Origin: Eubacteriales bacterium | GTDB lineage: Bacteria > Bacillota > Clostridia > Christensenellales > Aristaeellaceae | NCBI GenBank assembly: GCA_028693055.1 | Contig: JAQUWD010000011.1 | Span: forward strand, 1 to 64,000 | Direction of reading: 5' to 3' | DNA length: 64,000 bases | In this document: positions 20,465-63,583 of the stretch, in pieces | How the letters are laid out: every line of letters starts with the position of its first letter | Numbering within the stretch: the first letter of the stretch is position 1 | The notes under the pieces: model-generated | Database searches by the model: none | Told to the model about the DNA's origin: nothing | The model's input: the letters and a program-made list of their open reading frames with translations, nothing else | Position numbers and translations under genes: made by a program

Positions 20465-23400
20465 TTATTTGATGATCTGGTTTCCTTCCAAGTCATAATA
20501 CTTTTTCTCGGCAACGCTACCGTCCGTCTGATAGGTGTATTCCACAGACGCATATCCGTCGCTATTCAAAACCGCCCTGCCACCGCGATCCAAATAGCTT
20601 TCCTTCACAACTTTTTTGTTGCTGTTGTACTCGCGTACCACGATAGCGTAGCCCTTTACCTGCAGCACTGGCAATCTTCTGTCGTCGTAATAGGATTCTT
20701 TGCTCACATTACCCGCATCGTCATACTCTCTCTCAAGCATAGCGTAACCTTGATCGATCATCATTGGTTCGCTATTTACGTCATAATAGCTCTCCTTAAT
20801 GATCTTCTGATCCCTAAAGGTTCTCTGCACCATGTAATAGCCATTTTTATGAACGATCGGCTGACCGTTTCCATCATAATAGGCTTCTTCGTTACAATTA
20901 CCCGCGTCATCATAGCCGCGCTTTACCATGGCATAGCCGTTTGACAGCGTAAGCGGCTGACCTTCCCCATCAAAGTAGCTTTCTTCAATGATTTTCTTAT
21001 TTTCATTATATACGCGCCGTAGGATCGAGTAACCATTTTTGTGAGCCACCGGTAAGCCATTTCCATCAAAATAGGCTTCTTCGTTTACATTGCCCGCTTC
21101 GTCATAGCCGCGCTTTATCTTTGCATAGCCGTTTGGCAGCGTAAGCGGCTGACCTTCCACATCAAAGTAGCTTTCTTCGATAATCTTCTTGTTATCACTA
21201 AATACGCGCTGTATCCTGTGATAGCCGCTTTTGTGAGCTACCGGCAAGCCGTTTCCATCGAAGTAGGCCTCTTCGTTCACATTGCCCGCTTCGTCATAGC
21301 CGCGCTTCAGCATTGCATAACCGTTTGCCAAAGTCAACGGCTGATTGTCACCATCATAGTAGCGCTCTTCAATGATCTGCTTTTCCTCATTATACACACG
21401 TCGTATCATCCAATAGCCATTTTTATGGGCGACTTGCTGTCCTTCTCCGTCGAAGTAGGCTTCTTCGTTCACATTGCCCGCTTCGTCATAGCCGCGCTTC
21501 AGCATCGCATAGCCGTTTGGCATTGTCATTGGCTGTTCGCTGCTGTCAAAGTAGCTTTCCTGCACAACTTTCTTGTTTTCATTGTACACGCGATGTATGG
21601 AATAATACCCATTTTTATGAGCAACTGGCTGTCCGCTACCGTCGAAATAGCTTTCTTCGCTCACATTGCCCGCTTCATCATAGCCGCGCTTTAGCGCTGC
21701 ATAGCCGTTGGACAATGTAAGCGGTTGATTGGACGTATCAAAGTAGCTTTCCTCAATAATTTGCTTCTTATCGTTAAATACACGCCGTACGATGGCATAA
21801 CCGTTCTTATGAGAAACGGGCTGTCCGTTTCCGTCGAAATAGCTTTCTTCGATGACATTTCCCACTTCATCATAGACGCGCTTTAGCATCGCGTACCCAT
21901 TAGTCAAGATGATAGGCAGATTTTTCGCATCAAAGTAGCTTTCCTGAATCACTTTTTTATTTTCGTTGTACACCCGCCGAAGAATCACATAACCGTTCTT
22001 GTGAGTTACTGGCTGTCCATTTCCGTCATAATAGGCTTCCTCGCTTACATTGCCCGCTTCGTCATAGCCGCGCTTCAGCATCGCATAGCCGTTTGCCAGC
22101 GTTATAGGCGCGCTGTTTCCGTCAAAATAGCTTTCTTCGATGATTTGTTTTTTTTCGTTGAATATACGTCTCAAGAGCGCATATCCATTTTTATGGACTA
22201 CCGGCTTTCCGTTTCCATCGAAATAGGCTTCTTCGTTTACATTGCCCGCCTCGTCATAGCCGCGCTTCAGCATCGCATAGCCGTTTGTCAGCGTTATAGG
22301 CGCACCGTTTCCGTCAAAATAGCTTTCTTCGATGATTTGTTTTTTTTCGTTGAATATACGTCTCAAGAGCGAATATCCATTTTTATGGACTACCGGCTTT
22401 CCGTTTCCATCGAAATAGGCTTCTTCGTTTACATTACCCGCATCGTCATAGCCGCGCTTGAGCATCGCATAGCCGTTTGCCAGCGTTACAGGCGCGCTGT
22501 TTTCGTCAAAATAGCTTTCTTCGATAATTTTATTGCTTTCATTGTATATGCGCCGTACCAGAGCGTACCCGTTTTTGTGCGCTACGGGCTGTCCGTTTCC
22601 GTCGAAATAGGCTTCTTCGTTTACATTGCCCACCTCGTCATAGTCGCGCTTGAGCATCGCATAGCCGTTTGTCAGCGTTATGGGCGCGCTGTTTTCGTCG
22701 AAATAGCTTTCTTCCACGATTTTATTATTTTCATTGTATAAACGCCGTACCAGCGCGTACCCGTTTTTATGCGCTACGGGCTGTCCGTTTCCGTCGAAAT
22801 AAGCTTCTGCGTTTACATTGCCTGCTTCGTCATAGCCGCGCTTCAGCATCGCATAGCCGTTTGCCAGCGTCACAGACGCACCATTTTCGTCAAAATAGCT
22901 TTCTTCGATGATTTTATTGTTTTCATTGTATACACGCCTTACTAAGGCATATCCATTTTTGTGTGCTACGGGCTGTCCGTTTCCGTCAAAATAAGCTTCT
23001 TCATTTACATTGCCCGCTTCGTCATAACCGCGCTTTAGCATCGCATAGCCGTTTGCCAGCGTCACAGGCTGATCTGCCTCGTCAAAGTAACTTTCCTGAA
23101 TAATCTTCTTGTTCTCGTTGTACACCCGCCGAAGAATCGCATAACCGCTCTTGTGCTGTACAGGCTGAACGTTACCGTCAAAATAGGCTTCTTCGTTTAC
23201 ATTGCCCGCTTCATCATAGCCGCGCTTTAGCATTGCATAACCGTTTGCCAACGTTACGGGTTCTCCGTTTTCATTGTAATAGCTTTCTTCAATGATCTTT
23301 TTTTCCTCGTTGTACACCCGTTTTAAAGAATAATAACCGTTCTTATGCATGATGGGCTGGTCGTTTCCATCATAATAGGCTTCTTCGTTTACATTGCCCG

Positions 23401-25831
23401 CTTCGTCATAGCCGCGCTTTAGCATTGCATAGCCGTTTGCTAGTAGGATAGGCGCACCCTTTTCATCAAAATAGCTTTCCTCAATGACCTTCTTGTTTTC
23501 GTTAAACACCCGTTGTATCTCCGCATATCCCGCTTTACTCAGCAACGGCTGCTCATCCGTGTCAAAATATGTTTCTGAAGAGACATTACCGTTTTCATCA
23601 TAAGAGCGCTGAACCACATGGTATCCGTTTTTGCAAAGAATCGGCTGTTCTTCTTCATCAAAATAGCTTTCGCTGGCAAGCTTGCCATTATCGTAGTACG
23701 TTTTTTTTACTGCTGCATAGCCGTTGCTATTTCGCGTAGCCTTCCCCTGTTCATCAAAGTATCGTTCCTCAGCCACGTATTGCTTTTCATCATAAGCTCG
23801 TTCAAAAGAAGCATAGCCTTGGCTTACCTTGCAGGGCTGCCCATCCGCCGCTAAATAGCTTTCCCGGATCAGTAGCTTGCCGTCGTACTGCCGTAAACGC
23901 ACGGCATAGCCGTCCTTGCCCATCATTGGCTTTCCGTTTCTATCTAAAAAACCATATTCTATTACGTTTCCATTTTCATCATAGGAGGAAACGATCGTGC
24001 CATATCCGTTTGCTGTTTCCACGAATCCATCGTTAAGGTCCAAATAACTCTCTTTAACAATCTTCCCATTTTCGTTTAGCATGCAGAGCTTTTTGGCATA
24101 CCCGTCCGCTAGCTTTATCGGCTGGTTATCCGCACCGTAATAGGTAAGCGTATAGGAGGTACGATCCTCACTGTAAGCCTTGCGCGTATAGGCGTATTCG
24201 TTGCCCATAAGGGCAAGGGAGCCGTCCTTCAAATAGTAAAGGGTGGATAAAAGCGTATCCTCTTCATCGTATTCGTTTATCTTGGAAGCATAACCAGAGG
24301 AGCAATTCATCAGCTCCCCTTCCAAATCAAAATAGCTTTCTTCCTCCACTTTACCGTTTTCATGGTAGCGGTAATTCACTCCATGATATCCAGAGGTGGA
24401 ATAGACTCCTTCTCCATTGATAAAATACGATTCCGTAGCAACCTTGCTATCATAATAAGTATAGTGGATTTCACTGTAGCCCTTTGCGTTTACAACAGGC
24501 TGCCCGTCTGTATCCAGATAAGTGGTTACCAGCTTTTTGCCGTCTTCATCCACCGTATAGGAAATGGAGCTGTACCCCTGCGTGGTCACGACGAGTTTGC
24601 CTTTTGCATCCAAATAACGCTGCCCGGTCAGGTGCTTGTCATCATCATAGAAATACTCAATCTTCGCGTAGCCTTCCGCGCTTTCGATGATATTCCCCTT
24701 CGTATCGTAATAGGATGTGGTTCCAATCTGAGAATTGATAGCAAAGCTGTTTTTCAGCTTCGCATATCCCAGCTGCGGTACGATCATGAGCTTATCCTTA
24801 TCATTATAGTAGCGAATCTGAGAGACGCGTCCATTGGTGGCATATTCGGTATCAACACGGGAGTATCCCTTGTCATGATAGGTGCGGTTGCCATCCGCAT
24901 CATAATAGCATTCGCTTCTCACACGATTTCTGCCGTCATATTCTCGGGAGATTCCATAATATCCCCCCGTTTGCTGACAGGGCTGCTCAAATTCGTCAAA
25001 ATACATTTCTTTGGTGGGGTTTACCGCCCCGCCCGCATATTCGTAGGTCACATAGGCATAACCAGCCTTTACCATCGTCAGATTTCCATTTTCATCATAA
25101 TAAGCCATTTTACGAAAACGGCCTTTTTCATAGGTCTTTTCCATCGTCGCATAGCCGACGTTGGTGTTAAAAACACTATTACCTGCCGCATCCAGATAAG
25201 CGATACGGCTTGTATAGGTTTCCCCTACATATTCAAAAATAGCCGTAGCATAACCGTTTTCATTATTCATCGGCTGTCCGTCAGCGTTAAAATACTCTTC
25301 CTTGTTCTTCTTGGTCTTATCATATTTATTAGTGAAATAGCTAAATACGCAATGGGCATAAAGAGTGTCCGAGCGTACCGGCTGCTCATTGGCGTCATAA
25401 TTCCACGTGTCCAACAGCCAACGTCCTTTATAGGCGCTGATTTGTTTCGCGAATCCTTCCGGGCCAACAGCCAGCTGTCCGTCCTGATCATAGTAGATTT
25501 TTTCAATGACCTTGCGGCTTCCATTCCATTTCTGTGTGCATACGGCATAACCGTCGGCATTATTGACGGGTTCACCCTTAGCGTCTAAATACTCCGTCTT
25601 TACCAGCAAAGAACCGGAGGCATAGGTATACTTAACGGTAGCATAGCCAAGATTATCCGCTATTGTCGGATTACCGGACGCATCCACATAGGTAAGCCCG
25701 ATCAGCTTACCGTTATAAGCATAGGTTCGTTGAACTGATAGGTTGTTAGATACCTCTGCGCTTGACGAAAAAAGGGGAGCAAAAAGAAGGCAAATGCTAA
25801 CCAAACAACAAAGCAATTTATTGAAACGCAT
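20465..25831 (-). CDS. giant secreted tandem-repeat protein (1788 aa)
   Basis: Signal peptide MRFNKLLCCLVSICLLFAPLFSSSAEV followed almost entirely by ~32-aa repeats GYAxLKRxYDExGNVxEExYFDxxGxPVxxxN. Confidence 0.9.
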   Translation of the reverse strand: MRFNKLLCCLVSICLLFAPLFSSSAEVSNNLSVQRTYAYNGKLIGLTYVDASGNPTIADNLGYATVKYTYASGSLLVKTEYLDAKGEPVNNADGYAVCTQKWNGSRKVIEKIYYDQDGQLAVGPEGFAKQISAYKGRWLLDTWNYDANEQPVRSDTLYAHCVFSYFTNKYDKTKKNKEEYFNADGQPMNNENGYATAIFEYVGETYTSRIAYLDAAGNSVFNTNVGYATMEKTYEKGRFRKMAYYDENGNLTMVKAGYAYVTYEYAGGAVNPTKEMYFDEFEQPCQQTGGYYGISREYDGRNRVRSECYYDADGNRTYHDKGYSRVDTEYATNGRVSQIRYYNDKDKLMIVPQLGYAKLKNSFAINSQIGTTSYYDTKGNIIESAEGYAKIEYFYDDDKHLTGQRYLDAKGKLVVTTQGYSSISYTVDEDGKKLVTTYLDTDGQPVVNAKGYSEIHYTYYDSKVATESYFINGEGVYSTSGYHGVNYRYHENGKVEEESYFDLEGELMNCSSGYASKINEYDEEDTLLSTLYYLKDGSLALMGNEYAYTRKAYSEDRTSYTLTYYGADNQPIKLADGYAKKLCMLNENGKIVKESYLDLNDGFVETANGYGTIVSSYDENGNVIEYGFLDRNGKPMMGKDGYAVRLRQYDGKLLIRESYLAADGQPCKVSQGYASFERAYDEKQYVAEERYFDEQGKATRNSNGYAAVKKTYYDNGKLASESYFDEEEQPILCKNGYHVVQRSYDENGNVSSETYFDTDEQPLLSKAGYAEIQRVFNENKKVIEESYFDEKGAPILLANGYAMLKRGYDEAGNVNEEAYYDGNDQPIMHKNGYYSLKRVYNEEKKIIEESYYNENGEPVTLANGYAMLKRGYDEAGNVNEEAYFDGNVQPVQHKSGYAILRRVYNENKKIIQESYFDEADQPVTLANGYAMLKRGYDEAGNVNEEAYFDGNGQPVAHKNGYALVRRVYNENNKIIEESYFDENGASVTLANGYAMLKRGYDEAGNVNAEAYFDGNGQPVAHKNGYALVRRLYNENNKIVEESYFDENSAPITLTNGYAMLKRDYDEVGNVNEEAYFDGNGQPVAHKNGYALVRRIYNESNKIIEESYFDENSAPVTLANGYAMLKRGYDDAGNVNEEAYFDGNGKPVVHKNGYSLLRRIFNEKKQIIEESYFDGNGAPITLTNGYAMLKRGYDEAGNVNEEAYFDGNGKPVVHKNGYALLRRIFNEKKQIIEESYFDGNSAPITLANGYAMLKRGYDEAGNVSEEAYYDGNGQPVTHKNGYVILRRVYNENKKVIQESYFDAKNLPIILTNGYAMLKRVYDEVGNVIEESYFDGNGQPVSHKNGYAIVRRVFNDKKQIIEESYFDTSNQPLTLSNGYAALKRGYDEAGNVSEESYFDGSGQPVAHKNGYYSIHRVYNENKKVVQESYFDSSEQPMTMPNGYAMLKRGYDEAGNVNEEAYFDGEGQQVAHKNGYWMIRRVYNEEKQIIEERYYDGDNQPLTLANGYAMLKRGYDEAGNVNEEAYFDGNGLPVAHKSGYHRIQRVFSDNKKIIEESYFDVEGQPLTLPNGYAKIKRGYDEAGNVNEEAYFDGNGLPVAHKNGYSILRRVYNENKKIIEESYFDGEGQPLTLSNGYAMVKRGYDDAGNCNEEAYYDGNGQPIVHKNGYYMVQRTFRDQKIIKESYYDVNSEPMMIDQGYAMLEREYDDAGNVSKESYYDDRRLPVLQVKGYAIVVREYNSNKKVVKESYLDRGGRAVLNSDGYASVEYTYQTDGSVAEKKYYDLEGNQIIK
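20990..23500 (-). repeat. 192-bp (2 x 32 aa) tandem super-repeat array
   Basis: Recurrence of tcgtcatagccgcgctt(t/c)agcat at ~192-bp spacing, e.g. 22061, 22253, 22445. Confidence 0.85.
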
Positions 25832-27359: not shown

Positions 27360-28475
27360 TTAATTATATACCCTTACCGGCAGTACCAGATACAAATAGC
27401 TATCGCCGTCCAAGGGACAGATCACGCACGGGCTGACGCTGGTGTTCATGCATAGCGTGCAGCATTCCTCGTCCACGTTTTTAATCACGTCGCTGATATA
27501 CCGGGCGTTAAAGGCGATCTCGATATCCTCGCCCTCCAAATGAGCGTCCAAATCCTCTAATACATCTCCCATTTCGCTGTTGGAGGTGATTTTTAGATTG
27601 TTTTGGGTGGCTTTCATACGGATCAGATTATTTTTGCCTTCCTTAGCCATCAAGCTGGCGCGTTCGATGGAATCCTGCAATTCCTTACGCTTTACCGTCA
27701 CTCGACTTAACCATGCGGTAGGCAGAATCTGACGATAATTAATGTATTCGCCGGCTAATAGACTGGTGACTAACGTCGTGTTCCCAATGACAGCCATGAG
27801 ATGGGTGCTGTCGATATGGAAGGTGCACATGCCGTTATCGTCGTCCATAATATGAGTAAGCTCGTTCATTACCCTGCCGGGAATAATGGCTTTAACCTCA
27901 TCTTTTCCCTCTGGCAATACGAAGGTATCGTGCATACGCTGTAAAGCGAGCCTAAAGCCGTCTAAGCCAATCAGACGAAGCTCCTCCTTGGTTACCTCCA
28001 TCAAGCAGCCTGTAAGGGCCTGACGGCTCTCCTGAATGGCAATCGCAAAGGTTACCTTGCTGATCATATCCCGTAGCTTCTTTTGGGGGAAATGAAGGGC
28101 ATGGGTATTGATGAGATCCTTCATTTCTGGAAACTCGTCTACAGCCATACCGGTGATGGTGGAGCGGCTTTGCCCGCAGCGAATGGACACAGCCATATTA
28201 TCGTTCATGGAAAAGCTGGCTATCCCTTCCGGTAGCTTTCGAACGATTTCCGTTAAGAGGCGGCCCGGCAAAACCACCTCGCCTGCTTCCTTGATATCAG
28301 CCTTCACAAAGGAACGGATGCTTAAGGAGCCGTCGGAGCATAGCAGATTAACGCCATCCTCCTCCGTGCGCACCAGCACGCCTTCTAATATTTGCATAGC
28401 GGGACGGGCGCTTAACGCACGGGTAGCGTTTACCAAGCCGTATACTAAATCCTGCGCGGAGCATTCAAACTTCAT
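27360..28475 (-). CDS. dnaN: DNA polymerase III beta subunit (sliding clamp)
   Basis: MKFECSAQDLVYGLVNATRALSARPAMQILEGVLV..., C-terminal PL...YLYLVLPVRVYN; ATG at 28475 with RBS ggaggtacc. Confidence 0.92.
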   Translation of the reverse strand: MKFECSAQDLVYGLVNATRALSARPAMQILEGVLVRTEEDGVNLLCSDGSLSIRSFVKADIKEAGEVVLPGRLLTEIVRKLPEGIASFSMNDNMAVSIRCGQSRSTITGMAVDEFPEMKDLINTHALHFPQKKLRDMISKVTFAIAIQESRQALTGCLMEVTKEELRLIGLDGFRLALQRMHDTFVLPEGKDEVKAIIPGRVMNELTHIMDDDNGMCTFHIDSTHLMAVIGNTTLVTSLLAGEYINYRQILPTAWLSRVTVKRKELQDSIERASLMAKEGKNNLIRMKATQNNLKITSNSEMGDVLEDLDAHLEGEDIEIAFNARYISDVIKNVDEECCTLCMNTSVSPCVICPLDGDSYLYLVLPVRVYN

Positions 28476-28890
28476 TGGGGTACCTCCAATACCGTAGTAG
28501 TAGTATTTATAAACAGTAGTAGTAGTAGGGGGTGTGGAAAACATGGAAAAGCGGGTTATTTCCAATGCTCGTTTCAAAAATGCCCTTGGAAAGAGCAAGG
28601 TTTATTTTGGGAAAAGAGGAGGTTTTCCATAGGCAAAGACGTTCTTTTCTCAAAATGAGCGCTATCCTTTCGTTTTTAGGTAGGCTCAAAGCTATAAAAT
28701 TCGTGATCGACCCTTTTCTTTCCTGCAAATAAAAAGGAAAACCTCTCCTCAAAAAAAGACAGAAGCTTGTAAAAAATCCTTTTTCCACATTTTCCATAGG
28801 TTGAGGAAAAGCATAAGAGGAGAAAAAAGGTCGAATCCTATAAGCGTTTGGCGGCTCTTTCCACAAGCAGCGCTGATCTTTTCAACAGCC
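28476..28890. promoter_or_regulatory. candidate oriC / DnaA-trio (basal unwinding) region
   Basis: TAGx3 28495-28503, AT-rich TATTTATAAAC, TAGx4 28517-28528, GGGG 28529-28532, TGTGGAAAA 28533-28541; further TTTTCCA(C/T)A boxes at 28623, 28781, 28790. Confidence 0.5.
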
Positions 28891-28895
28891 AGCGA

Positions 28896-29144
28896 TTATA
28901 AAAGAAGGGAAAGAACTTCTTCCATTGCCTGCTCCTCGTCCACGCCGTCAGCGGCTAGCGTTACCACGCCGTCTTGGGGGAAGGACTGTGATAGAAGCCC
29001 CAGCATGCTTTTCATATTCAGAATGGAATTGCCGTGCTCCATCAGAAAGGTACATTCGTACCGGGAAGCCGCTTTGGCGATGGCTGCGGCTTTCTCCCGA
29101 TTGATAGGCAGCAGGCTCGTTATGTTTACCGTAGTTCTTTTCAT
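28896..29144 (-). CDS. crh: HPr-family protein, Crh-like (no catalytic His at the His15 region)
   Basis: NSILNMKSMLGLLS (Ser46 region) present; GLHARPA replaced by SLLPINREKA; directly downstream of whiA. Confidence 0.7.
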   Translation of the reverse strand: MKRTTVNITSLLPINREKAAAIAKAASRYECTFLMEHGNSILNMKSMLGLLSQSFPQDGVVTLAADGVDEEQAMEEVLSLLL

Positions 29145-29157
29145 GGTGACAGACTCC

Positions 29158-30111
29158 TTACAGCGTTTCTTTCTTCTTATTTTCGGCGTACTCTAATAGC
29201 CGCCGCATGCGGTGATTGACTCCGCTTTTTCCAATCGGCGGGTTCATGGCCTCTCCCAGCTGGGCAAGGGATGCGTCCGGCGCGTTCAGCCGTGCCGCCG
29301 CCATCTCTTGAAGGGATTTGGGCAGTCCCTTTAATCCGTCGTTTTCAGCTAGCTCGGCGATCATGCGAAGCTGCTCGTCGCTGGCGTTCATTTGTTTTCT
29401 CAAGTTGGCGTTATCACAGTTAATCATTCGATGGACGGAGCCAAGAACCTGCCTTTGAACCCGCAGATTTTCAATTTCCATCACCGTTTGATTGGCTCCA
29501 ACCACCTTTAAGAACGTGACGATATGATCAATTTGCTTTAGGTACAGGTAGCCGTGTCCCTTCCGGGCGCTTTGCTTGATGGGGAGATCAAACTTCTGTA
29601 GGCATTTGGCCAGATCCTCCCGTATGGAATCGTCCCGGCAGGAAATTTCCAAATGATAGCCTTGTTCCGGCTTGGTGATCGACCCGCCGCCCAGCATCGC
29701 GCCCCGAAGAAAGGCGCGCATGCAGCAGGAACGGGTCAGGCTTACTTTGGGGGTGGTGGATCGAAGCATAACGGCCCCGTCCTTTTCATCCGTCATCATG
29801 CGTAGAGCGATTAAAAAGGACGGGCTTTGCAGCGGCCCCAAGGTTAATACACATTTGCGGGTGCCGCCGAAGCGGGCGTTAGATACGTAATGAATCTGTG
29901 GCGCTAGGTGCAGCGCTTGGGTTAGCAGGGTATAAATTCTGCGGCAGACCGTGATGTTTTCGCCGGAAAACTGGACGTTTACCTTTCCCCGCCCTAGTAA
30001 ACTCAAGCTTCCCATGGTCATGTACAGCGCGCATAGCTCGCTGATCAGACAGCAGCTTTTTTCCGGCTTGATCAGGCAAAGCTCATTCTTGCATTCGCTG
30101 GAAAAGGACAT
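29158..30111 (-). CDS. whiA: DNA-binding protein WhiA
   Basis: MSFSSECKNEL..., LRGAMLGGGSITKPEQGYHLEI LAGLIDADG-like domain, PIGKSGVNHRMRRL C-terminal HTH. Confidence 0.95.
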   Translation of the reverse strand: MSFSSECKNELCLIKPEKSCCLISELCALYMTMGSLSLLGRGKVNVQFSGENITVCRRIYTLLTQALHLAPQIHYVSNARFGGTRKCVLTLGPLQSPSFLIALRMMTDEKDGAVMLRSTTPKVSLTRSCCMRAFLRGAMLGGGSITKPEQGYHLEISCRDDSIREDLAKCLQKFDLPIKQSARKGHGYLYLKQIDHIVTFLKVVGANQTVMEIENLRVQRQVLGSVHRMINCDNANLRKQMNASDEQLRMIAELAENDGLKGLPKSLQEMAAARLNAPDASLAQLGEAMNPPIGKSGVNHRMRRLLEYAENKKKETL

Positions 30112-46870: not shown

Positions 46871-49800
46871 CTATTCAAGTCTTTTCATCATCATCGTTTT
46901 TAAGGATAGCGAGTAGAACCCCATTTCTCCCACCTGCAAACCTGTTACTTTTTCAAGCGCCAGTTTATAAAAGGCAATTTGATCAGCGTACAGGTCCCAT
47001 AGCTCCTTCTCGTTATTGATATGATCTGTTTTGAAATCAATCAGAATCCAGTGATTGTTTTCCAAAAAGCAGCAATCGATCACACCTTGCGCAATGGTAC
47101 GTATCGGCTCCTCGATAGCGACGTTGAAGCTCCACTCCCGGTGCACCACAGTTGCTTTCAACAGCCTTTGTCCAATTGATGAGGCGAAAAAGCTGCCGAT
47201 TGCGTCCGCATCAATTAGGGTTTCTTCCTCTTCTGTTAGCATCCCTTGCCGAGTCATACGCTCTATTTCTTCCTTTATATATGGAATACCGCTCTCTATA
47301 TTTTGGAGCCGATCCACCAAATCAATGGAGCTGATCACCTGATGAGTGACGGTTCCGCGTATCGCCGCTCTGTTCTCCAAGGGTGCGTCTAGGAAGGCAG
47401 GAGCCGTCGGAAGAGAAGAGAGGAGCTTTGGGCGTTGGGTTAATAAAGGCATTCGCTTCATGGTGATGGTTTCTATTTCCTCAGCTTCGGAGGATACGGG
47501 CTGCTTTTCCCTAATTGCCCTACACAGAGCCGTTACACCCAGCTTGAGCGGTAGATGCTGATAGGCAGGCAATGGCGATAGGGGATCGTTTGAGAATGAA
47601 TCCTCCTGGTCAGCATTTGTATTTTCCTTCCATCCATCTGTTAGAGGAAGATCGAAAATTGCCTTTTTCTGGTTATCCACTTCTACAGCAGAGGAACTTA
47701 TTGATTTTTCTTTGTCAATGTGGAAAAACACCCTCCAAACGGCATTTTTATGTGGAAAACTTGTGGGATTCGCAGGAAAACTTTTTCCGCTTTCTTTTTT
47801 CCATATCAGATTTGTGGAAACATGATTTTCTTCATTCCACTGAATCGAATCCTGAGGCGTGATACATTGTAGTAACCAATCCAATAGTGAACCCGCTGAT
47901 TGCACCCCCGTCAAGTCGTTGATTTCATTGACTTTTAAGCATGCGTTTTCTACAGTCGATTCTAAGGCTGGCTTTTTCTGTTTAGTCGAGCCAATCATCA
48001 CTAAACGATTTTTCGGCCGTGTCATCGCCACGTACAGAAGACGCGCTTTTTCTGCTCTCTCTTCGCTAGCAAGACGAAGCTGTATCCCGCTCTGCATAAG
48101 GGTTGTACGCTTCGTACGGCTGTGCTCATTTATATACATGAGCCCAATTCCAAGCTCGCTATGCATTGAAATGATTTTGGTCTGCCTTCGCTTTGCAATC
48201 GATCCACCCAACCCCATTAAATAGACTGTTGGAAATTCCAAGCCCTTCGATTTATGGATGGTCAAAATACGCACGACATCCTCCCATGGATTCACCACAG
48301 TAGGAGAAGAGCTGTCGCCGCCTACTCCCTTTTGAATACATTCCAAAAAGCCTTGTAAGCCGTCACGATGAGTTTGCACATATTCGCCCGCTTTTTGGCA
48401 AAGCATCCGTAAATTAGCCTGTCGCAGCTTCCCTCCCGGCTGAGTTCCATAATGGGCATACAGACCGCTGCGCATCAAGAAATCCCACAGATATTCCTCT
48501 GGCGGAAGATTCCGGTATAGAAACCGCTCTTCATCCAACATCTGTAGAACAGCCTTGCATCTCTTAGCCAATTCATCTGGCGGTTCCATTTTGGAAGTTT
48601 TTTGTAGTGCTTCATAAAAGCTGGCCTCTTTTTGAGGTAACTGCAAACGGATCTGAGATAGATCGCTTTCGTTCATCTGAAACAACGGGCTCCTCAGCTC
48701 TGCAATCAAAGCCAGATCATTCCGCTGATTGTCCATTAAGAGCAGATGCTGAATTGCTTGTATGGATTCTTCCCCGCCCAGAGCGTTCGCTCCCGCATCC
48801 GTATATACGGGAATCCCGGCTTTGGTTAGCACCATTTCCACCTTGTCCGCTACATTCTTGACAACCGGCGTCAAAATCGCAATATCCCGAAAATGGAGCA
48901 CACCGACAGCTTGTCCGTCCCGATCCCGTATCTCAGTGCCAACTGTAGCAAGTATATCTTGTGCAATCTCTTCAGCTTCCTGTAGAACAACCTCTGTAGG
49001 TTTTCTATCGGCAGACGAGAACACCCTCAACTCGCAAAATGGATCCTCTCGACTAGGAATCCCCGGATAAAGACGGGCATTACGGTCATAATCAATTTCT
49101 GTTACTCGTTTGTCCATCACATGAGCGAAGGTACGGTTTACAGCGTCCAACACGCCTTCTCTTGAGCGAAAATTTCGATTCAATATGATTTTTCGGTGAG
49201 TCGCATTTTCTTCTTCTGAAAAGCTTTCTTGTTTTGAGAGAAAAAGCTTCGGTTCTGCAAGACGAAATCGATAGATACTCTGCTTTACATCCCCCACATA
49301 GAAGTAGTATTGAGGATGCTCCTCATCCGATTCTCGTTTTAAACCGTTCAGAATCGCTTCTTGAATGGCGCTCACGTCTTGATACTCATCGACAAATACC
49401 GCGTCAAATCGATTGGCTTCTAATTGCTGTAGCCTCGAATCTTTTAAAACCGCCAAGGTCATGTGCTCTAAGTCGTTGAAGTCTAAAACCGCCTGCTCTA
49501 ATTTTCTGCCTTGAAAAGTATCAAAAAGGATCTTCATTGCTTTTCCTAGCCCAGCCGTTGCCGTCGATATTTGATTCATATCCTGCAATGCCGTATCCAG
49601 TCGAATGGGAAGAAGCTCCTTAAAGCTTTGAATCCGCTTTTTGTATCCGTTACGAAGCTCTTTATATGCCTCCACGAGAGCTATTTCATCTTCCGTAATC
49701 GGTTTTGTTCTGGCCAGCGTAACAAACTTGCACTCCGTTACGGCTTTTAACATGGCAGAAAAGCCGTTTCGGACTCCATCTGATAGATTGTTTAAGGTTT

Positions 49801-50533
49801 CCAAGTCACCCTCAATGGTTTTCAAAAGTGGCTGTGCAAATGCGGGTTCCTCTGCTAGTCTTTTTGTTTTTGCCCACTCTGCCAGTACGGCTTCCAGCAT
49901 GAGTACCCCTTCGGATACAAAAACCTCTGCAATTGGCTCCTGGTCAAAGGCTTCTACCATCCACTGCTTTTCGGTCTGCTCTTCAAACCATTGTAGTGGA
50001 TTAGGCCGTGAAATCAGAAAACGAAAGGTCATATCAAGCACAGCGGCGATTTGCTTCTCCGTCATTTTTTTCAGAAAGGCTCCAATAGCTGGATCGGTTT
50101 TTGCATCGGTATAGATACGGTCTAGCGTGTCCTCCATGGATTCCTGATACATTGTTTGTAAAGTACGTTCATCACCGATGGAAAACTGTGGGTCAATGTT
50201 GCAATCTTTGAAATGCTCCCGTATCACTCGCTGACAATAGGCGTGAATGGTTGATATTTGTGCGCTGCCCACAAGCTCCGCTTGTTTTAAAAGGCGATCG
50301 TCCTCTTGCGCAGCGTCCACAATTCTGTTTTCCAAACGCTCACGCAGTTCCGCCGCCGCCGCTCGTGTATAGGTGACAATCAGCATGCGGTCAATGGACA
50401 AGCCCCAATGAGAAATCATATACAATATGCGCTCTACCAATACGGCGGTTTTCCCACTGCCTGCGGCTGCGGAAACAAGTAATTCTTTATTTTTGGCATG
50501 AATGGCACTTTCTTGTTCGGGAGTAAAGCCCAT
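46871..50533 (-). CDS. addA: helicase-exonuclease AddAB subunit AddA
   Basis: UvrD-type helicase FTPEQESAIHAKNKELLVSAAAGSGKTAVLVERI; VDEYQDVSAIQE; C-terminal WILIDFKTD nuclease motif. Confidence 0.95.
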   Translation of the reverse strand: MGFTPEQESAIHAKNKELLVSAAAGSGKTAVLVERILYMISHWGLSIDRMLIVTYTRAAAAELRERLENRIVDAAQEDDRLLKQAELVGSAQISTIHAYCQRVIREHFKDCNIDPQFSIGDERTLQTMYQESMEDTLDRIYTDAKTDPAIGAFLKKMTEKQIAAVLDMTFRFLISRPNPLQWFEEQTEKQWMVEAFDQEPIAEVFVSEGVLMLEAVLAEWAKTKRLAEEPAFAQPLLKTIEGDLETLNNLSDGVRNGFSAMLKAVTECKFVTLARTKPITEDEIALVEAYKELRNGYKKRIQSFKELLPIRLDTALQDMNQISTATAGLGKAMKILFDTFQGRKLEQAVLDFNDLEHMTLAVLKDSRLQQLEANRFDAVFVDEYQDVSAIQEAILNGLKRESDEEHPQYYFYVGDVKQSIYRFRLAEPKLFLSKQESFSEEENATHRKIILNRNFRSREGVLDAVNRTFAHVMDKRVTEIDYDRNARLYPGIPSREDPFCELRVFSSADRKPTEVVLQEAEEIAQDILATVGTEIRDRDGQAVGVLHFRDIAILTPVVKNVADKVEMVLTKAGIPVYTDAGANALGGEESIQAIQHLLLMDNQRNDLALIAELRSPLFQMNESDLSQIRLQLPQKEASFYEALQKTSKMEPPDELAKRCKAVLQMLDEERFLYRNLPPEEYLWDFLMRSGLYAHYGTQPGGKLRQANLRMLCQKAGEYVQTHRDGLQGFLECIQKGVGGDSSSPTVVNPWEDVVRILTIHKSKGLEFPTVYLMGLGGSIAKRRQTKIISMHSELGIGLMYINEHSRTKRTTLMQSGIQLRLASEERAEKARLLYVAMTRPKNRLVMIGSTKQKKPALESTVENACLKVNEINDLTGVQSAGSLLDWLLQCITPQDSIQWNEENHVSTNLIWKKESGKSFPANPTSFPHKNAVWRVFFHIDKEKSISSSAVEVDNQKKAIFDLPLTDGWKENTNADQEDSFSNDPLSPLPAYQHLPLKLGVTALCRAIREKQPVSSEAEEIETITMKRMPLLTQRPKLLSSLPTAPAFLDAPLENRAAIRGTVTHQVISSIDLVDRLQNIESGIPYIKEEIERMTRQGMLTEEEETLIDADAIGSFFASSIGQRLLKATVVHREWSFNVAIEEPIRTIAQGVIDCCFLENNHWILIDFKTDHINNEKELWDLYADQIAFYKLALEKVTGLQVGEMGFYSLSLKTMMMKRLE

Positions 50534-50602: not shown

Positions 50603-50618
50603 TGTTTCACATGAAACA
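50603..50618. promoter_or_regulatory. parS-like site 1 (one mismatch)
   Basis: TGTTTCACATGAAACA. Confidence 0.7.
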
Positions 50619-50643
50619 AATGGAGTAAATCGCTTATAGTGAA

Positions 50644-50659
50644 TGTTCCACGTGAAACA
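50644..50659. promoter_or_regulatory. parS site 2
   Basis: TGTTCCACGTGAAACA matches TGTTNCACGTGAAACA. Confidence 0.88.
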
Positions 50660-50688
50660 TTTATGAACGACAACACACTTGGAATTCA

Positions 50689-50704
50689 TGTTTCACGTGA
50701 AACA
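50689..50704. promoter_or_regulatory. parS site 3 (perfect palindrome)
   Basis: TGTTTCACGTGAAACA. Confidence 0.92.
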
Positions 50705-62881: not shown

Positions 62882-63583
62882 ATGCAAATACACGATACTC
62901 CAATGCTCCCAACAAAGGCTAAAAAGAGGAGCGGTTTCTGGTACTATGTCCGCAAAAAAAAGTGCCTATATATAATGCTGATACCTTGCATACTATACTT
63001 TTTGATCTTTAACTATCTTCCCATGGGCGGCATAATCATAGCATTCAAGGACTTCAGCTTCAAAAAAGGAATCTGGGACAGCGCTTGGTGCGGGCTGGAA
63101 AATTTCAGCTATATGTTTGGACTAAAAGATTTCTATAATGTTGTTGGAAATTCGCTGATCCTAAGCTTGCTTCGAATTGTCCTGACATTCCCAATACCGA
63201 TATTGCTGGCGTTAATGATGAATGAAATTAACAATGCCTTTTACCAGAAAACCATTCAAACGGTCATCTATCTACCACATTTTATTTCGTGGGTAGTGGT
63301 TGGCAGCATTCTTACCAACTTCCTATCGCCCTCAGGCGGCGTAATAAACGATTTGCGCCAGGCGATGGGGCTTGACTCTATTTTCTTCATGGCGGATAAA
63401 GACTACTTCAGACCATTGGTTATATTAACAAGCATATGGAAAGAGTCCGGGTGGGGAACCATAATCTATTTGGCGGCTATCGTAAACGTATCCAACGAGA
63501 TTTACGAGGCGGCACGCATCGACGGCGCTAGTCATTTTCAAATGCTTCGTTATATTACCTTGCCGTGCATTAAATCTATGTAG
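62882..63583 (+). pseudogene. sugar ABC transporter permease (LplB-type), C-terminally truncated
   Basis: YIMLIPCILYFLIFNYLPMGGIIIAFKDF; EAARIDGASHFQMLRYITLPCIKSM then stop; expected final TM segment(s) missing. Confidence 0.75.

Follow-up and report, generated by a model that had tools for sequence, protein, structure and literature searches.

A single-copy DnaA-box and DnaA-trio module upstream of dnaN, away from dnaA, is the probable chromosomal origin of a Candidatus Limiplasma-like member of the Clostridia

Is a cluster of DnaA-boxes and DnaA-trios that lies upstream of dnaN, with no dnaA gene beside it, the chromosomal origin or a second origin-like module? The Firmicute origin context rnpA–rpmH–dnaA–dnaN has been described as conserved (PMC7561715). 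The stretch of DNA analysed here (the window) is positions 1–64000 of contig C106 (86,622 bp), part of a 3.83-Mb metagenome-assembled genome (MAG) in 116 contigs from an uncultured gut bacterium. Among named taxa, its DnaN comes closest to that of Candidatus Limiplasma spp. and is 84% identical to the DnaN of Ca. L. pullicola. The true start of dnaN is the ATG at 28475; an SNF-family transporter gene lies downstream of dnaN, and upstream are an HPr-like gene whose product shares Asn15 and Ser46 with Crh, and then whiA. This bears out the initial annotation, which had named crh/whiA rather than dnaA as the adjacent gene. The sole dnaA of the genome (TIGR00362) is at 16.7–18.1 kb of another contig, C86, so that the bipartite Firmicute arrangement with adjacent dnaA and dnaN is absent from the window. 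An Rfam scan of the window returned a tRNA and nothing else. The features around dnaN are as follows.

27360–28475, minus strand: dnaN, DNA polymerase III beta clamp, 371 aa (PF00712, PF02767, PF02768)
28494–28505, minus strand: second trio-like array TACTACTACTAC, conserved in part (alignment of relatives)
28505–28513, minus strand: AT-rich unwinding element TTTATAAAT (sequence)
28514–28528, minus strand: DnaA-trio array CTACTACTACTACTG, 3'-GAT-5' repeats on the complementary strand (sequence)
28529–28532, minus strand: GC-rich spacer CCCC from box to trios (sequence)
28533–28541, minus strand: DnaA-box TTTTCCACA adjoining the GC-rich spacer (sequence)
28542–28550, minus strand: second co-oriented tandem DnaA-box TTTTCCATG (sequence)
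28623–28631, plus strand: DnaA-box-like TTTTCCATA (sequence)
28781–28810, mixed strands: distal box cluster with TTTTCCACA (plus, 9-mer at 28781), TTTTCCATA (plus, 9-mer at 28790) and TTTTCCTCA (minus, 28802–28810) (sequence and conservation)
28857–28887, plus strand: outer boxes CTTTCCACA (from 28857) and TTTTCAACA (28879–28887) (sequence)
28896–29144, minus strand: HPr-like (Crh-like) gene (PF00381; Asn15/Ser46 in the translation)
29158–30111, minus strand: whiA (TIGR00647)

Direct reading of the minus strand from 28550 to 28494 gave TTTTCCATG TTTTCCACA CCCC CTACTACTACTA CTG TTTATAAA TACTACTACTAC. The order proposed initially (DnaA-box, GC spacer, trios, AT-rich DNA) was recovered with every element in place, as were the further 9-mers reported at 28623, 28781, 28790 and 28857. 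Three boxes were added: TTTTCCTCA in the distal cluster, the outer box TTTTCAACA, and the tandem box directly ahead of the main box, which had been overlooked. Two co-oriented DnaA-boxes thus stand directly ahead of tandem 3'-GAT-5' DnaA-trios, with AT-rich DNA next, as in the basal unwinding system. When one mismatch was allowed, CTACTACTACTA occurred four times in the window, three of them at the module, versus 0.06 expected, and none of 100 shuffles reached four copies; chance alone would not be expected to give trio runs this long in the window. Within the 500 bp that start at 28533 there are seven box-like 9-mers (one mismatch or fewer) versus a contig mean of 0.36, the highest box density of the whole contig. 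A 119-aa minus-strand open reading frame across the region (28507–28866), earlier suspected to be spurious, is indeed so, as it has no Pfam match and spans poorly conserved DNA.

Aligned across the 15 dnaN-bearing genomes of the genus, the dnaN–HPr intergenic region reaches its highest conservation at the module. The 24-column block with the trio array has a majority-base fraction of 0.956 versus a median of 0.458. The distal box cluster at 28781–28810 comes second (0.806), the dnaN ribosome-binding site and start are less conserved than the module block (0.797), and the second trio-like array scores 0.711. In the main box TTTCCACA is invariant across the 15 genomes; the TTTTCCA of the tandem box is kept at the same place in 15/15, and that box reads TTTTCCACG in most relatives. 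The GC spacer reads CCCC, GCCC, TGCC or GGCT in relatives, the AT-rich element is AT-rich there too, and the phasing between the first and second arrays differs from genome to genome. Loss of the repeats and boxes among close relatives had been named as evidence against an origin; both are kept. Two other sequences were seen in the same intergenic region. A conserved GCAGGAAA motif is present in nearly all relatives, at aligned columns 513–536, which fall in the middle of this region in the window. The Spo0A box TGTCGAA lies ~260–350 bp before dnaN in G006, G007, G008, G012, G013 and G015, at an aligned place in these 6 of 15 relatives and at 16 times the background rate; TGTCGAA is missing from the dnaN upstream region of the window, and Spo0A boxes were for this reason dropped as part of its origin.

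A DNA pattern of the module, searched with two mismatches allowed and with the reversed pattern as a control, matched once per genome in 15 of 17 genus genomes, each time just upstream of dnaN. The two genomes with no match likewise yielded no dnaN, and the control gave zero matches in the genus genomes. These counts bear on the idea that the module is accessory, an integrated plasmid or an extra origin, with the main oriC elsewhere. Some bacteria do use more than one origin, and dnaA is not adjacent here, but the module is single-copy, genus-wide and beside a core gene, the genome has one DnaA and no further module match, and the two near-closed genomes of the family have one main skew switch pair each. 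An accessory origin is extremely improbable on this evidence.

Skew placed the switch at dnaN. On the window's contig the cumulative GC skew bottoms out at 28493, one base off the dnaN-side end of the module (28494), so the minimum does not lie elsewhere, the outcome that had been held to count against an origin; the largest skew step with 10-kb flanks falls on the same base. In G011 the cumulative minimum (79852) and the module (79884–79907) are 32 bp apart within the 180 kb read. In G007 the largest 10-kb-flank step is at 29484, next to the module at 29435–29458, and the skew at dnaN is a local minimum only. The skew is noisy: the contig minimum lies 6.2 kb from dnaN in G014 and 2.9 kb in G001, and the 140 kb read in G120 have their minimum 50 kb away from dnaN. 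At chromosome scale, skew was taken from sampled stretches of two nearly closed family genomes. In G056 (3.97-Mb contig) it was positive between 60 kb and 2.0 Mb and negative over the rest; a local minimum at 63307 lies beside dnaN (63588–64688), and dnaA is 47 kb off on the falling limb. In G120 (3.26-Mb contig) it was mostly negative before ~1.67–1.72 Mb and mostly positive after; dnaN maps to 1.671 Mb, and dnaA lies within one replichore at a distance of 1.21 Mb. The skew minimum at the module is thus contig-level in the window genome, and the whole-chromosome switch lies near dnaN in G056 and G120. The gene-orientation switch in the window is not sharp because the genes at 28.9–36 kb face the origin. 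A separate skew minimum, at 78 kb of the dnaA contig C86, was rejected as an origin; it falls in a LacI/sugar-transporter cluster and has neither parS nor a module match.

ParB sites (parS) gave a second positional marker, and the gene they precede carries further DnaA-boxes.

46871–50533, minus strand: addA
47719–47821, minus strand: DnaA-box array inside the addA coding sequence, boxes at 47719, 47751 and 47813, with conserved spacing
50603–50704, strand unassigned: three parS-like sites, at 50603, 50644 and 50689 (3 versus 0.14 expected)

The parS-like sites of the window (TGTTTCACGTGAAACA and variants) lie directly before addA, 22 kb from the origin. The distance between such sites and dnaN is ~1–24 kb in the window's contig and in G001, G007, G011, G014, G056 and G120, among them all five of the dnaN contigs read in the genus; none was found in 300 kb of contigs having dnaA without dnaN. 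Their placement before addA is similar in G001, G007, G011 and G014.

Skew and parS also weigh on a reading in which the boxes and trios are a DnaA-controlled dnaN promoter left over from the former operon, with initiation taking place elsewhere, for instance at dnaA. The module lies ~20–75 bp from the dnaN start codon, its near end ~20 bp before the ATG, and the dnaA loci of the genus have DnaA-boxes ahead of dnaA as well, both of which would suit a promoter. Those loci, however, have no trios (17/17 are without a box-plus-trio module), skew keeps one direction through the 200 kb surrounding dnaA in G014 and through dnaA in the window genome, and the skew switch and parS are at dnaN instead. 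Nor would a promoter need CTA repeated exactly four times at a constant distance from two boxes. We therefore consider a promoter relic very unlikely and retain the reading of the module as an origin.

The separation of dnaA from dnaN is widespread in the family. Among 103 family genomes with both genes, the two are adjacent in 30 and far apart on one contig in four; in 46 more the flanking contig sequence rules out adjacency, and 23 are undecidable. At least 50 of the 103 are hence split. Single-contig distances are 47 kb (G056), 1.21 Mb (G120) and 38 kb (G095 and G119). Since most of these genomes are fragmented MAGs, the split might be an assembly artefact, with dnaA truly abutting the origin, and the 101-kb distance in G007 is indeed uncertain because a scaffold gap (100 N at 50269) lies between the two genes. 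The single-contig splits and the 46 excluded adjacencies nevertheless speak against this, as do the HPr-like gene and whiA in the position of dnaA in the window; for the family the artefact is already refuted, and overall we give it almost no probability. dnaA is normally kept near the origin, and its place in G120, at 458 kb and roughly three quarters along the origin-to-terminus arc, is unusual.

Relatives with adjacent genes point to where the module came from. In G026, G017 and G024, which belong to the same order or family as the window, the same module sits in the dnaA–dnaN spacer (TTATCCACATTGTCCACACCCCCTACTACTGCGACTACTACT, TTATCCACATTATCCACATCACTACTACTGCTACTA and AATCCACACCCCCTACTACTAACTACTA, respectively). 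A strict trio scan misses degenerate trios in several order-level relatives, whose spacers were read by eye; by that reading G020 and G027 have no clear module at dnaN. The module of the window therefore corresponds to the spacer origin, with dnaA displaced. So the ancestral module probably lay between dnaA and dnaN, and dnaA appears to have left while the origin stayed with dnaN.

Given its anatomy, conservation and single copy, the skew switch, the nearby parS and this correspondence to the spacer origin, we propose that 28494–28887 is the single chromosomal oriC of this Candidatus Limiplasma-like bacterium and 28494–28550 its basal unwinding system, with a probability of about 0.93. The initial annotation had left the choice between an origin with displaced dnaA and a second origin-like module; the former is favoured, and the latter falls away. 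If the module works as in B. subtilis, DnaA expressed from the distant dnaA gene would bind the two tandem boxes, and the outer boxes, among them the conserved cluster at 28781–28810, may raise the local DnaA concentration. DnaA-ATP would then oligomerise over the CCCC spacer to reach the CTA repeats and capture one strand. The strands would be pulled apart toward dnaN, the AT-rich DNA beside dnaN would melt, and the helicase would be loaded there. We infer that DnaA binding, unwinding and bidirectional initiation all take place at the module, which would make it a compact, one-piece origin. Bipartite looping, as proposed for C. difficile, is unlikely because the boxes of the dnaA promoter, in genomes of known dnaA distance, lie from tens of kb to 1.2 Mb off.

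The module itself is ordinary. It shares with the B. subtilis incC/basal unwinding system (PMC6669920, PMC10721633) the two co-oriented boxes, the trios, the AT-rich DNA, their order and the dnaN side; the main box takes the position of B. subtilis DnaA-box 7 and the tandem box that of box 6. Unlike in B. subtilis, the trios form a nearly perfect run of CTA, there is no dnaA on the other side, and an adjoining dnaA-promoter half (oriC1) is not possible. The C. difficile oriC2 likewise has a trio, CACCTACTACTATTACTACTATGA, in the spacer upstream of dnaN, with boxes before and AT-rich DNA after, but it lies in an rnpA–rpmH–dnaA–dnaN context as part of a bipartite origin, both halves of which are needed for melting in vitro (PMC7561715). 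The E. coli oriC, too, is away from dnaA; the authors of the basal unwinding model tie that departure to divergence from the basal module (PMC6669920), whereas the module of the window stays textbook.

What is new is the gene context, an ordinary unwinding module with unusual neighbours, and the arrangement is already known in cyanobacteria. In Synechococcus elongatus oriC lies at dnaN with a GC-skew switch, and dnaA and dnaN are encoded separately (PMC7198777); it belongs to another phylum, and the comparison covers gene context and skew. No report of a dnaA-free dnaN origin in the Clostridia or other Firmicutes was found in the open-access literature. That the module is textbook throughout the genus although dnaA is gone, and that the genes are 38 kb to 1.2 Mb apart in the family, suggests that box–trio unwinding can do without dnaA in cis and without an oriC1 next to it. 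The locus is also an exception to the rule of annotating Firmicute origins in rpmH–dnaA–dnaN. With both arrangements in one family (30 adjacent, at least 50 split), it offers a natural experiment on the role of dnaA proximity and dosage.

The addA boxes form a pattern of their own. Two exact TTTTCCACA boxes stand 32 bp apart in 14/14 addA genes of the genus (loci L165–L178), and a third lies 62 bp ahead of the pair in most genus genomes. The boxes fall in a linker segment in differing reading frames; one box encodes Phe as TTT and the other as TTC, and each choice thereby spells a box. Exact boxes number 2–5 per gene versus at most 0.12 in codon shuffles. The array looks like a DnaA-binding cluster within a gene near the origin, and a role as a DnaA titration or timing site would be a guess. 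No report of DnaA-boxes in addA was found in the part of the open-access literature covered. A broader scenario is that the origin of this large Clostridia family is one-piece and dnaA-free, the lost dnaA-side boxes having been functionally replaced by parS and the addA array as a titration or timing site; we hold this to be speculative and somewhat unlikely. Also near the origin region, the minus strand at 20465–25831 encodes a 1788-aa protein with many tandem repeats of the YDEAGNVNEEAYFDGNGQPVxHKNGY type.
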